This document shows positions 1-57,511 of a DNA stretch of 57,511 nucleotides, in pieces. The first letter of the stretch is position 1; every line of letters starts with the position of its first letter. The stretch covers positions 1 through 57,511 of the forward strand of contig CADBUP010000154.1 of the NCBI GenBank assembly GCA_902797885.1. Reading direction: 5' to 3'. Under the pieces are notes generated by a model. The model was not told the DNA's origin. It saw nothing but the letters and a program-made list of their open reading frames with translations, and did no database searches. The DNA comes from an uncultured Ruminococcus sp. (GTDB lineage Bacteria; Bacillota; Clostridia; Monoglobales; Monoglobaceae). The translations under genes and the position numbers were made by a program.

Positions 1-44
1 CAAAAAGCACTTTTCTTGCCATAAGTACAATGCTTACTTTTCAT
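1..44 (-). CDS. 5' end of an unidentified ORF, truncated by the window edge
   Basis: Fourteen codons are visible (MKSKHCTYGKKSAF). The ATG is preceded at 6 nt by a strong GGAGGG ribosome binding site. The basic N-terminus followed by what may be the beginning of a hydrophobic stretch would fit a signal peptide or a small membrane protein, but too little is visible to assign a family. An identical start is present at the other end of the window (57468-57511), so at least two genes share this N-terminus. Confidence 0.6.
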   Translation of the reverse strand, partial: MKSKHCTYGKKSAF

Positions 45-166
45 AAGCATCCCTCCTTTCATAGACTCGGTTAAAAATAACCTGTGAATATAAAAGAGGG
101 GCATAACCGCCGGTGTTTAACACCGCGAGTGAAATCCTGCCTTATTCCGCGCGGAATATCCGCATT
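45..166 (-). promoter_or_regulatory. Structured 5' leader, left copy (candidate cis-regulatory RNA)
   Basis: Reading on the minus strand: stem GCGGA/TCCGC (plus-strand bases 151-163), stem GGTGT/ACACC (112-124), a possible closing GGCA/TGCC pair, a GGTTA/TAACC hairpin (about 69-82), and a CCCCTC stretch just upstream of it that can pair with the GGAGGG ribosome binding site at 51-56. The right copy keeps the stems while loop bases change. It matches no riboswitch class that I can recognise by eye. Confidence 0.6.
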
Positions 167-170
167 CTCT

Positions 171-199
171 ATTTTATCATAAATTTTAACAATCTTCAA
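171..199 (-). promoter_or_regulatory. Sigma-A promoter of the left cassette
   Basis: On the minus strand a TTGAAG -35 box (194-199) is separated by 17 nt from a TAAAAT -10 box (171-176). The same spacing and position relative to the leader occur in the right copy. It drives transcription outward, off the left edge. Confidence 0.7.
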
Positions 200-12673: not shown

Positions 12674-13936
12674 TTATATCTGAGCCTTCTCGCCGCAGAT
12701 TTCCGTAAGAGACTTTGATACCGAGTGATTAATCGGCTTCCACTCGATCTTGCGGAAGAGCGCGACAATCGCAATCGGAACGTATGTCAGCATAAACAGC
12801 GGGAAAGTGAACAAGTAAAGCACTCTCTTCGGCTTACTGCAATGAATCTGATCCGCCTCGGTAATCGTGGTGATTAAGCCGAGCAGGAAGAACATTCCGT
12901 AGAAGTTAGCCACGGTCTTTACAAGTATCGAAACAAGCGTCATAAGATCATTGGAATGATTTATTATTCCGATCGGTATAGCAATAATGTTTATCGCGAT
13001 ACTGATAAGGGTAAGAAGCATCGCGGGCATTATCGTCATCAGCATATCAAAGCATGAAAAGCTTCCTTTAAAGATTCCTTTAATCAGCTTTCCTCCGTAG
13101 TTACGAAATACCTGATAAAAACCCTTTGCCCATCTGAGTCTCTGTGTATATGACTGGCTGAACTTAGTCGGCTGTTCATCATATAAAATTGCATCCGCAC
13201 AGTAGCCGATTTTCTCGCCGTGTATAATACTGTCTGTTGTGAACTCTATATCCTCGGTGAGAAGATGATGAATCCAGCCGTTATTTTCACGGATAACATC
13301 GGCGCTTACCAAAAATCCCGTACCCGAGATTGCACAGCTTGTACCGAGCTGCATTCTCGCGTTGTTGAGGTACCTAGCCTCGCGCAGGAACCAAAGCGAA
13401 TATCCCGCCGTAATCCAGTTTGTATCATAATTCTTTGAGTTACGATAGCTGGTGATGATACGATAGCCGTTGTCAAACACCTTATTCATCTCGGCTATAT
13501 AATTCGGGTCAAGAACATTATCGGCGTCAAATATTATGTAGCCTTCATAGTTCCTGTCGGCGTATTCTGACTCAATAATATTAAACATCCAGTCAAGCGC
13601 ATAGCCCTTGCCTACCTGCTCTTTATTAAAACGCTCATAAACTATCGCGCCGGCCGAACGAGCAATCTCAGCCGTATTATCCGTACAGTTATCGGCTATA
13701 ATAAATATATCCACAAGCTCCTGCGGATAGTTCTGATTTCGTATGCTTGAAATCAGGTTACCTATAACGCTGCTCTCATTTCTCGCCGAAACAACCACCG
13801 CAAACCGATGCTGTTTCTTGGCCGAAAACTTTTTCGGTTTCTTTAATAACCCTACAAATATATAGAAAAACTGGTATGCGTAGCATAGGGTAAAAATCAC
13901 AGAAATTACACAATTAAAAAATATAATTGCTTTCAT
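12674..13936 (-). CDS. Membrane-bound family 2 glycosyltransferase
   Basis: Likely a processive synthase of a surface polysaccharide, using a nucleotide sugar at the cytoplasmic face. The 420-residue protein has an N-terminal membrane helix (about 1-25), a GT-A domain with VSARNES, the DADN metal-binding motif, TED, and the QRLRW motif of processive enzymes, then about three C-terminal membrane helices. BcsA/IcaA/NodC relatives share this layout. No PilZ domain is visible. It stands alone, with a terminator after it, and the polymer is unknown. Confidence 0.85.
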   Translation of the reverse strand: MKAIIFFNCVISVIFTLCYAYQFFYIFVGLLKKPKKFSAKKQHRFAVVVSARNESSVIGNLISSIRNQNYPQELVDIFIIADNCTDNTAEIARSAGAIVYERFNKEQVGKGYALDWMFNIIESEYADRNYEGYIIFDADNVLDPNYIAEMNKVFDNGYRIITSYRNSKNYDTNWITAGYSLWFLREARYLNNARMQLGTSCAISGTGFLVSADVIRENNGWIHHLLTEDIEFTTDSIIHGEKIGYCADAILYDEQPTKFSQSYTQRLRWAKGFYQVFRNYGGKLIKGIFKGSFSCFDMLMTIMPAMLLTLISIAINIIAIPIGIINHSNDLMTLVSILVKTVANFYGMFFLLGLITTITEADQIHCSKPKRVLYLFTFPLFMLTYVPIAIVALFRKIEWKPINHSVSKSLTEICGEKAQI

Positions 13937-43678: not shown

Positions 43679-43755
43679 GGTCCGGTAGTTCAGTTGGTTA
43701 GAATGCCAGCCTGTCACGCTGGAGGTCGTGGGTTCGAACCCCATCCGGATCGCCA
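43679..43755 (+). tRNA. tRNA-Asp (GTC)
   Basis: The cloverleaf folds with acceptor GGTCCGG/CCGGATC (one G-T), anticodon stem CCAGC/GCTGG around the loop CTGTCAC (anticodon GTC), T arm GTGGG-TTCGAAC-CCCAT, discriminator G and an encoded CCA. It is followed after 3 nt by tRNA-Thr. Confidence 0.97.
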
Positions 43756-43758
43756 TTT

Positions 43759-43834
<76 letters not shown>

Positions 43835-47696: not shown

Positions 47697-47826
47697 TTTA
47701 TAAAATTTTAAGCGTAAAGCAAGGTCTAACGAAATTCGGTCATATTTATTGAGTCAAAAATGCAACGAAGTTAATATGACACGGCGTATATGTGGATTAT
47801 GCGAAACGCTTACAGGAGGGAAATGT

Positions 47827-49248
47827 ATGGAAACATTCAACAACATTCTGGCGGTGATTGACGACTGGGTATGGGGTATTCCGCTGATAGTCCTTATCTT
47901 GGCGGTCGGCTTTCTTATGACAGTAAGAACAAGATTTGTTCAGGTAAGACACTTAGGCAAGGCGCTTAAGTATATGATTCAAAATGAAGAAGACGGAGAG
48001 GGCGATGTTACAAGCTTTGGTGCATTGTGTACGGCTCTTTCCGCAACAATCGGTACAGGTAATATAGTCGGTGTTGCTACCGCTATCGCTGCCGGTGGTC
48101 CGGGTGCACTTTTCTGGATGGAATTTGCGGCTTTTCTCGGAATGGCTACCAAATACGCCGAAGGCCTGCTCGCTGTTAAATACAGAGAGATAGGCTCGGA
48201 CGGGAAGGTTCTCGGCGGTCCTTTCTACTACATAGAAAAGGGAATGGGTGAAAACTGGAAGTGGCTTGCGAAAATTTTCGCGGTATTTGGAATGCTCGTT
48301 GGTATTATGGGTATAGGAACAATGACCCAGATTAACGGTATCACAAGCGCGGTTACTAATTTCTTTGACCCGGACAAGGCTATGGTTGCATTCAAAATGG
48401 GTGGTATGGAGTATACCTGGCCGACCGTTATAGCCGGAGTGGTTGTTACATTCTTTGTTGCGTTGGTTGTAATCGGCGGAATCAAGAGAATAGCTAAGGT
48501 TTCAGAAATTATTGTTCCGTTTATGGCTGTTCTTTATGTTGTATGTGCCGTTATCCTTATTGTCTGCAATATAACAAAGGTTCCCGGCGCTATCGTTTTG
48601 GTGGTTAAAAGTGCGTTCTGCCCGAAGGCGGTATTCGGCGGTGCGGTAGGTATCACGGTTAAGGCGGCTATGCAGAAGGGTATAGCGAGAGGTATTTTCT
48701 CGAATGAGTCGGGTATCGGTTCGGCTCCTATCGCCGCTGCTGCTGCAAGGACAAAAGAGCCCGTCAGACAGGGGCTTGTATGTATGACAGGTACTTTCTT
48801 TGATACAATTATCATCTGCACAATGACTGGTTTATCGATTGTTCTGACCGGTGCATATCAGCCGGCGATGGACAAGTCCTTGGTTGGTGTGGCTATCACG
48901 ACCGAAGCTTTTTCGAGGGGTTTGCCTTTCTCGAATAATTTGTGTGCCTTTCTCCTTATGATTTCGTTGGTATTCTTTGCGTTTACCACAATCCTCGGAT
49001 GGGACTATTATTCGGAAAAGTGTCTCCAGTACCTCGTAGGAAACAAAAAGGCGATTCTGTTGACATTCAGAATATTATACATCGCCGCTGTATTCATCGG
49101 TCCGTATCTTCAGGTTTCGTTTGTATGGACGCTTGCTGATATAGTAAACGCTCTTATGGCATTCCCGAACCTTGTTGCGCTGTTCGCGCTCAGCGGCGTC
49201 GTGGCAAGTGAAACAAAGGCTTATATAGCGAAAATCGAAAGCAAATAA
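47827..49248 (+). CDS. alsT: Sodium:alanine/glycine symporter (AGCS family)
   Basis: A Na+-coupled importer of alanine and glycine. The 473-residue protein has about 10 to 11 helices and the AGCS signature SATIGTGNIVGVATAIA...GGPGALFWM. ATG 47827 is 7 nt after AGGAGG; the frame extends upstream but that part is inside the regulatory leader. A glycine riboswitch upstream supports glycine as a substrate or signal. Confidence 0.95.
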   Translation: METFNNILAVIDDWVWGIPLIVLILAVGFLMTVRTRFVQVRHLGKALKYMIQNEEDGEGDVTSFGALCTALSATIGTGNIVGVATAIAAGGPGALFWMEFAAFLGMATKYAEGLLAVKYREIGSDGKVLGGPFYYIEKGMGENWKWLAKIFAVFGMLVGIMGIGTMTQINGITSAVTNFFDPDKAMVAFKMGGMEYTWPTVIAGVVVTFFVALVVIGGIKRIAKVSEIIVPFMAVLYVVCAVILIVCNITKVPGAIVLVVKSAFCPKAVFGGAVGITVKAAMQKGIARGIFSNESGIGSAPIAAAAARTKEPVRQGLVCMTGTFFDTIIICTMTGLSIVLTGAYQPAMDKSLVGVAITTEAFSRGLPFSNNLCAFLLMISLVFFAFTTILGWDYYSEKCLQYLVGNKKAILLTFRILYIAAVFIGPYLQVSFVWTLADIVNALMAFPNLVALFALSGVVASETKAYIAKIESK

Positions 49249-57310: not shown

Positions 57311-57339
57311 TTGAAATTAGGAAAATTTTATGATAAAAT
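57311..57339 (+). promoter_or_regulatory. Sigma-A promoter of the right cassette
   Basis: TTGAAA (57311-57316), 17 nt, TAAAAT (57334-57339), with TG three bases before the -10. Positions match those in the left copy. Confidence 0.75.
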
Positions 57340-57345
57340 AGAGCT

Positions 57346-57467
57346 TGCGGAGGAATCCGCGCGGAATAAGGCAGGATTTCATTTGCGGTGTTCAGCACCG
57401 GCGGTTATGCCCTCTTTTATATTCTCACAGGTTATTTTTAACCGAGTCTATGAAAGGAGGGATGCTT
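57346..57467 (+). promoter_or_regulatory. Structured 5' leader, right copy (candidate cis-regulatory RNA)
   Basis: Stem GCGGA-GGAA-TCCGC (57347-57360), stem GGTGT-TCA-GCACC (57387-57399) possibly closed by GGCA/TGCC, hairpin GGTTA-TTTT-TAACC (57430-57443), and CCCTC (57410-57414) complementary to GAGGG (57457-57461) of the ribosome binding site. The closing T-G pair of the second stem is T-A in the left copy, which keeps pairing. No known riboswitch class recognised. Confidence 0.6.
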
Positions 57468-57511
57468 ATGAAAAGTAAGCATTGTACTTATGGCAAGAAA
57501 AGTGCTTTTTG
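57468..57511 (+). CDS. 5' end of an unidentified ORF, truncated by the window edge
   Basis: The same fourteen codons as at the left end (MKSKHCTYGKKSAF), preceded 6 nt upstream by GGAGGG. Nothing after the first 44 bases is visible, so the product cannot be named. The two genes share at least their N-terminus and regulatory leader. Confidence 0.6.
   Translation, partial: MKSKHCTYGKKSAF

Follow-up and report, generated by a model that had tools for sequence, protein, structure and literature searches.

The window, by which we mean the whole stretch of DNA that was analysed (the 57,511-nt contig CADBUP010000154.1), carries at its right end (57320-57511, plus strand) and at its left end (1-187, minus strand) two copies of one element that are 93% identical and that are both truncated by the contig ends. 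In the right-end copy, where all features lie on the plus strand, a probable -10 element TATGAT of a putative toxin mRNA promoter (57329-57334), read from the sequence and with no clear -35, is followed by a first leader hairpin GCGGA-GGAA-TCCGC (57347-57360), by a leader motif AAGGCAGGA...CGGTTATGCC that includes CGGTGT/GCACCG and recurs in 96 of 110 loci (57368-57411) and by an anti-Shine-Dalgarno strand CCCTCTTT (57410-57417). Next come a hairpin GGTTATTTTTAACC forming the tip of a Shine-Dalgarno hairpin (57430-57443), the Shine-Dalgarno sequence AAAGGAGGG itself (57453-57461), whose sequestration is supported by sequence, covariation, a duplex test and folding, and a further hairpin ATGCTTA-TGAAAAG-TAAGCAT (57462-57482) between it and a peptide start. 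The window end cuts both an upstream ORF (MKSKHCTYG..., 57468-57511) and the peptide gene that it overlaps, of which the first codons ATGGCAAGAAAAGTGCTTTTTG (MARKVLF..., 57490-57511) were assigned from homologues and from identity with another contig, C176. The second copy, on the minus strand, shows the first hairpin as GCGGA-TAT-TCCGC (151-163), the leader motif (100-143, located by motif search), the GGTTA/TAACC hairpin (69-82), the Shine-Dalgarno sequence (51-59) and the first codons of the peptide gene (1-22), cut by the window start. Elsewhere in the window there are two tRNA genes (43679-43831) and a glycine riboswitch aptamer (RF00504, 47556-47645), the latter lying ahead of an ORF of 499 codons (47749-49248).

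The break of the contig inside both copies is most likely the result of the element being repeated. A complete third copy, 94% identical, is present on contig C29 of the same genome (locus L005). The right half of one more copy is found on contig C176 (L006); it is identical to the right end of the window over the 80 nt aligned and continues beyond it as MARKVLFALLFIAAYAIIFAQKVM. In total the leader motif has five copies in this genome, every one within a module of the kind described below. Because the window copies are truncated, the peptide gene and its antisense partner were invisible to the sequence-only reading that first singled out the leader.

Layout of the complete module

The complete copy on C29 has, after the leader, an ORF of 24 codons, MARKVLFALLFIAAYAIIFAEKVM, and then an inverted repeat, with a promoter TTGACA-N17-TATACT on the opposite strand directed back at the ORF and predicted to produce an RNA that begins with AGAAAAGGCAAGACCTCAAAACGGTTATGCC. 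In order to collect relatives we anchored a search on the 5' motif of this predicted antisense RNA, which would start at CAGAAAAGGCAAG. With at most 3 mismatches allowed, a limit that would miss more diverged relatives, and with an anchor that would miss loci having lost only the antitoxin, the search returned 112 distinct loci, and in 98 of them leader motif, Shine-Dalgarno sequence and hydrophobic ORF follow one another in this order; the genome of the window was found by other patterns since its antisense motif has one extra A. Relatives have the same arrangement with different hydrophobic peptides of 22-24 aa. Among the 98 full loci the short ORF, for which a hydrophobicity cut-off was part of the search criteria, encodes 22 aa in 47 and 24 aa in 34 (81/98).

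The peptides fall into three classes: class A, M[GLR]KYILRIIFLxIVFLIALTxKVR (24 aa); class B, MEYVYIMIYIITLIVLIITIKK and MDNEYIISFMIILLLLVISIKK (22 aa); and class C, the class of the window, MAKKLLVAIFVVIILMILFPIKVR-like (24 aa) and preceded by the ATGCTTA-TGAAAAG-TAAGCAT hairpin. N/S ratios by class were 0.10, 0.15, 0.47 and 0.48, from which we conclude that the peptides are under purifying selection. Searches of Pfam, NCBIfam and PADLOC with the peptides returned no match, a length of 22-24 aa leaving profile searches little power. The hydrophobic peptide is probably membrane-active.

Both putative promoters recur across the loci. In 89 of 91 loci a TATAAT-like element precedes the leader motif, by a loose test in A+T-rich DNA. 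On the antisense side, out of 96 loci, 95 have a -10 element, 68 have TTGACA with at most one mismatch and 64 have a spacing of 17 bp. The arms of the inverted repeat pair better within loci than mismatched arms do (-13.4 vs -8.8 kcal/mol, 0/5000), and the stem is bordered by runs of A at one side and runs of U at the other, which would enable it to terminate transcription in both directions; the stop codon of the toxin gene falls within this stem or next to it. The antisense RNA is predicted to consist of two hairpins, motif and terminator, and to pair end to end with the 3' end of the mRNA. A duplex between its 5' domain and the leader, of the direct repeat (DR) type, was not clearly above shuffles (mean z -1.2), and YUNR sequences in the terminator loops showed a weak excess (19/73 vs 11.4 expected for the antisense RNA, 14 vs 11.3 for the mRNA).

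Unusually, the toxin mRNA and the antisense RNA would both begin with the same hairpin element, AAGGYAAGA...CGGTTATGCC, a shared motif also given as GGCAAGACC/GGTTATGCC. In the leader this motif has a near-invariant outer stem (GGYAaGAY/GGUUaUGCC) enclosing a variable hairpin. Matches to the exact pattern in 40 genomes were confined to modules and the control pattern had none; a role as a regulon site elsewhere was considered and rejected, as no copies lie outside modules in these genomes. In one group of genera, with six loci (L037, L039-L041, L051 and L057, from G027, G031, G033, G006 and G019), the antisense motif has GGCAAAGCC in place of GGCAAGACC. The leader of L039 has GGTACAGCC, which looks as though both motif copies in this locus had changed together.

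Leader fold and the hidden Shine-Dalgarno sequence

The sequence-only reading had described a GCGGA/TCCGC hairpin with the loop GGAA in one copy and TAT in the other, a T-G pair closing GGTGT/GCACC that becomes T-A in the second copy, and a CCCTC-type strand able to pair with the ribosome binding site around a GGTTA/TAACC hairpin, all of which are present in the two copies as described. By eye it had not been able to match the leader to TPP, FMN, SAM, glycine, c-di-GMP, ZTP, THF, fluoride or guanidine aptamers; an Rfam covariance scan gave no match above the gathering score. For the module RNAs nothing significant was found in Rfam at gathering or relaxed thresholds, and a below-threshold search with L005 produced weak matches only, far under the gathering scores.

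Both window leaders fold better than dinucleotide shuffles (z -4.2 and -3.4), with the qualification that the minimum-energy fold of the window sequence alone misses some helices that the alignment supports. The covariation that the same reading had proposed looking for in more copies was found in class C as well as in class A/B leaders. In an alignment of class C leaders (n=14, both window copies included) 26 pairs were defined with 98.0% of cells paired; 17 cells were changed on both sides vs 3.8 in shuffles, a value that none of 500 shuffles reached, and 8 pairs were changed on both sides vs 2.2. All five measures of covariation gave 0/500 and the signal was destroyed when the partners were slid. 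Most of the compensatory changes in this class fall in the GGTTA/TAACC hairpin (helix 4), where 3 of 4 pairs have changes on both sides, and in the ATGCTTA/TAAGCAT hairpin after the Shine-Dalgarno sequence (helix 5, class C only), which is 100% paired and has 4 such pairs. Class A and B leaders have 44 compensatory cells vs 15.8 (covariation 0/500), and the first leader hairpin, which covaries as helix 1 in the class C and class A/B alignments, shows changes on both sides in 6 of 6 pairs in the latter.

As the register of the Shine-Dalgarno pairing shifts across classes, we paired each anti-Shine-Dalgarno strand either with the ribosome binding site of its own locus or with those of other loci, and found the matched duplexes to be more stable over all classes (-13.2 vs -11.6 kcal/mol, 0/5000). 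Within class B alone the pairing was no better than mismatched (711/5000), because the sequences hardly vary. A similar duplex test of helix P1 is biased, its arms having been picked from each sequence's own fold, and the covariation alignments are the better test. The motif outer stem, P2, showed no covariation in the duplex test (4908/5000) and is therefore treated as a sequence element. Pairing between the leader and the 3' UTR within the mRNA was also considered; it is strong (-13.1 kcal/mol) and matched no better than mismatched (3789/5000), and was rejected. The comparative evidence supports a leader fold that hides the ribosome binding site, that is under selection and that belongs to no Rfam family.

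In class C a long stretch separates the Shine-Dalgarno sequence from the peptide start, and the ORF that begins at the ideal spacing is out of frame, a point against the toxin mRNA reading given below. This upstream ORF (MKSKH...) is present in all class C loci listed, and with respect to it the toxin gene is in every case in frame +1. It is open in 11 of 11 loci tested. Protein-level selection on it was looked for and none was seen beyond the class A level: variation by codon position is the same as in class A, where this ORF is absent. Two routes to the toxin start can be proposed: the ATGCTTA/TAAGCAT hairpin may bring the peptide start to within about 7-10 nt of the Shine-Dalgarno sequence, or the upstream ORF may be translated and the toxin made by coupling, as in hok/mok.

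Distribution, sister copies and decay

Across GTDB genomes the antisense 5' motif was found in 87 contig stretches, mostly from gut Clostridia, namely MAGs of Ruminococcus and Oscillospiraceae recovered from ruminants, rabbit and other sources. The module motif is present in 17 of the 38 genomes of the window's family and class-wide in 33 of 391 genomes and 22 of 222 genera, with several copies per genome; a phylum-wide sample had none (0/249 genomes) and a reversed control pattern had zero matches in the genome searches. Tandem copies hold a fixed internal order. Five viral contigs carry the motif, and blastn against plasmid and phage records found no match. On two viral contigs, L165 (about 13393-13680) and L167 (about 1101-1350), the module borders on the gene for the tape measure protein in an operon for a phage tail.

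Copies within a genome are not equally alike along their length. Within multi-copy genomes leader identity was 0.851 vs 0.794 expected (0/2000) and the peptides were more alike than between genomes (6/2000), whereas the overlap of the sense and antisense RNAs, the terminator, showed no excess likeness (0.716 vs 0.702); the difference between overlap and leader was itself significant (6/2000). Two adjacent copies in L147 agree fully in leader and peptide but are only 80% alike in the terminator, and the same overlap recurs with different toxin classes in different genomes. The overlap is the sole part of the module that does not follow the kinship of copies, a divergence that is consistent with an antisense RNA that would act on its own mRNA only.

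A number of loci have lost parts of the module. In L094, L111, L116 and L157 the leader and toxin start are gone and the antitoxin promoter and terminator are kept, and in L010, L081 and L123 no recognisable toxin remains. All seven retain the antitoxin promoter, motif and terminator intact and may be solitary antitoxins or decayed modules; one such locus, L111, with a truncated toxin, is in the isolate Lachnospiraceae bacterium MD329. This direction of decay, in which the toxin goes and the antitoxin stays, would be expected if the peptide is harmful and the antisense RNA is not, with the reservation that the search was anchored on the antisense motif.

A candidate family of type I toxin-antitoxin modules

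Taken together, the leader is very probably the 5' leader of a toxin mRNA, in modules that would make up a new type I toxin-antitoxin family. Each module encodes a small hydrophobic peptide, below the limit of 60 aa applied to type I toxins, and by sequence an antisense RNA gene complementary to the toxin mRNA. We infer that one promoter would give an mRNA of roughly 200-250 nt, in which the leader hides the Shine-Dalgarno sequence of the 22-24 aa peptide, and that the convergent promoter would give an antisense RNA of ~80-90 nt made of a 5' hairpin and the terminator hairpin. Since both RNAs would end at one bidirectional terminator, their 3' ends would be complementary. The hidden Shine-Dalgarno sequence would block translation until the antisense RNA binds, and, if par of pAD1 (PMC7472228) and bsrG/SR4 (PMC6562991) are a guide, pairing may start at the terminator loops, which are complementary, silencing the mRNA and/or exposing it to double-strand cleavage. 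Should antitoxin synthesis stop, the mRNA would outlive the antisense RNA and the peptide would be made.

Several known systems share parts of this design. The par locus of pAD1 (Fst; RNA I/RNA II of Enterococcus faecalis) likewise has convergent promoters with a bidirectional terminator as complementary region, a 5' stem-loop over the Shine-Dalgarno sequence with an extra hairpin near the mRNA 5' end, and both chromosomal and mobile copies (PMC7472228). In contrast to Fst the peptides here are without the PXXXG motif and the conserved tryptophan, and the Fst profile PF13955 matched in 0 of 38 family genomes. The DRa and DRb repeats of par are clearly complementary to one another, whereas here the same motif, with mutually complementary halves, is on both RNAs. 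As the toxin is not Fst and a duplex of the DRa/DRb kind was not clearly above shuffles, we have not filed the module as a member of the Fst family. In bsrG/SR4, txpA/RatA and bsrE/SR5 of Bacillus subtilis there are also 3'-end pairing and a sequestered ribosome binding site (PMC6562991), but their toxins are longer than the present peptides, which have no match to Hol_Tox (PF16935), a profile found in one of the 38 family genomes, which is without a module motif match.

The Clostridioides difficile pairs CD2517.1-RCd8, CD2907.1-RCd9 and CD0956.2-RCd10 have convergent, overlapping toxin mRNA and antisense RNA, many of them in prophages, and toxins of 34-59 aa with lysine-rich tails; the part of this Clostridia review covered here contains no 22-24 aa family of this kind (PMC6563280). 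The class C upstream ORF, which starts at the Shine-Dalgarno sequence, is out of frame with the toxin gene that it overlaps, as mok is with hok. Unlike in hok/mok/sok, the antisense RNA covers the 3' end and not the 5' region, and the upstream ORF shows no sign of protein-level selection. We did not find a description of the family in the open-access literature searched, and the peptide module of the window is part of a family not previously catalogued.

The same architecture could instead serve a non-toxic small membrane protein, a regulator or signal, under a cis-antisense RNA, and small single-helix membrane proteins with roles other than toxicity are indeed known. We consider this improbable, as the multicopy, tandem and phage-borne spread, the divergence of the overlap between copies and the retention of the antisense RNA after loss of the peptide start all fit addiction modules better. 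The sequence-only reading had proposed a selected RNA fold controlling translation and by implication an aptamer. The fold and the hidden ribosome binding site were borne out by covariation, but the implied aptamer was not: the leader serves a 22-24 aa peptide that faces an antisense RNA, its core stem is also on that antisense RNA, and the motif is found only in modules (40 genomes). A metabolite-sensing riboswitch would account for a leader that is structured and conserved, that hides its Shine-Dalgarno sequence and that has an invariant stem motif, and is nevertheless highly unlikely given that the target is always a peptide of this type and never a metabolic gene, that the invariant part is common to the antisense RNA and that Rfam gave no match. 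A MITE-like non-autonomous mobile repeat, with AAGGCAAGA...TCTTGCCTT as transposase sites and the RNA features incidental, would explain the multiple copies, the inverted motifs at both ends and the contig ends that break inside, and is just as implausible when both promoters lie outside the motifs and are yet conserved, the peptide is under purifying selection, the RNA helices covary and the internal order is fixed in tandem copies.

If the type I toxin-antitoxin reading is true, a widespread module family would be added to gut Clostridia, one missed by annotation because its peptides are just 22-24 aa and its RNAs are in no library. With many near-identical copies in one genome, such modules provide a natural setting for testing how an antisense RNA distinguishes its target from sister copies. 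That the 5' motif is identical in the sense and antisense RNAs poses a new, testable question on the co-control of both RNAs. As the motif halves are mutually complementary, the toxin mRNA and the antisense RNA could exchange strands; tentatively, and with the odds somewhat against it, they may do so through this common element, or one dedicated factor may recognise both, setting their stability. Either would couple toxin and antitoxin in a manner that, to our knowledge, has been described for no type I system.
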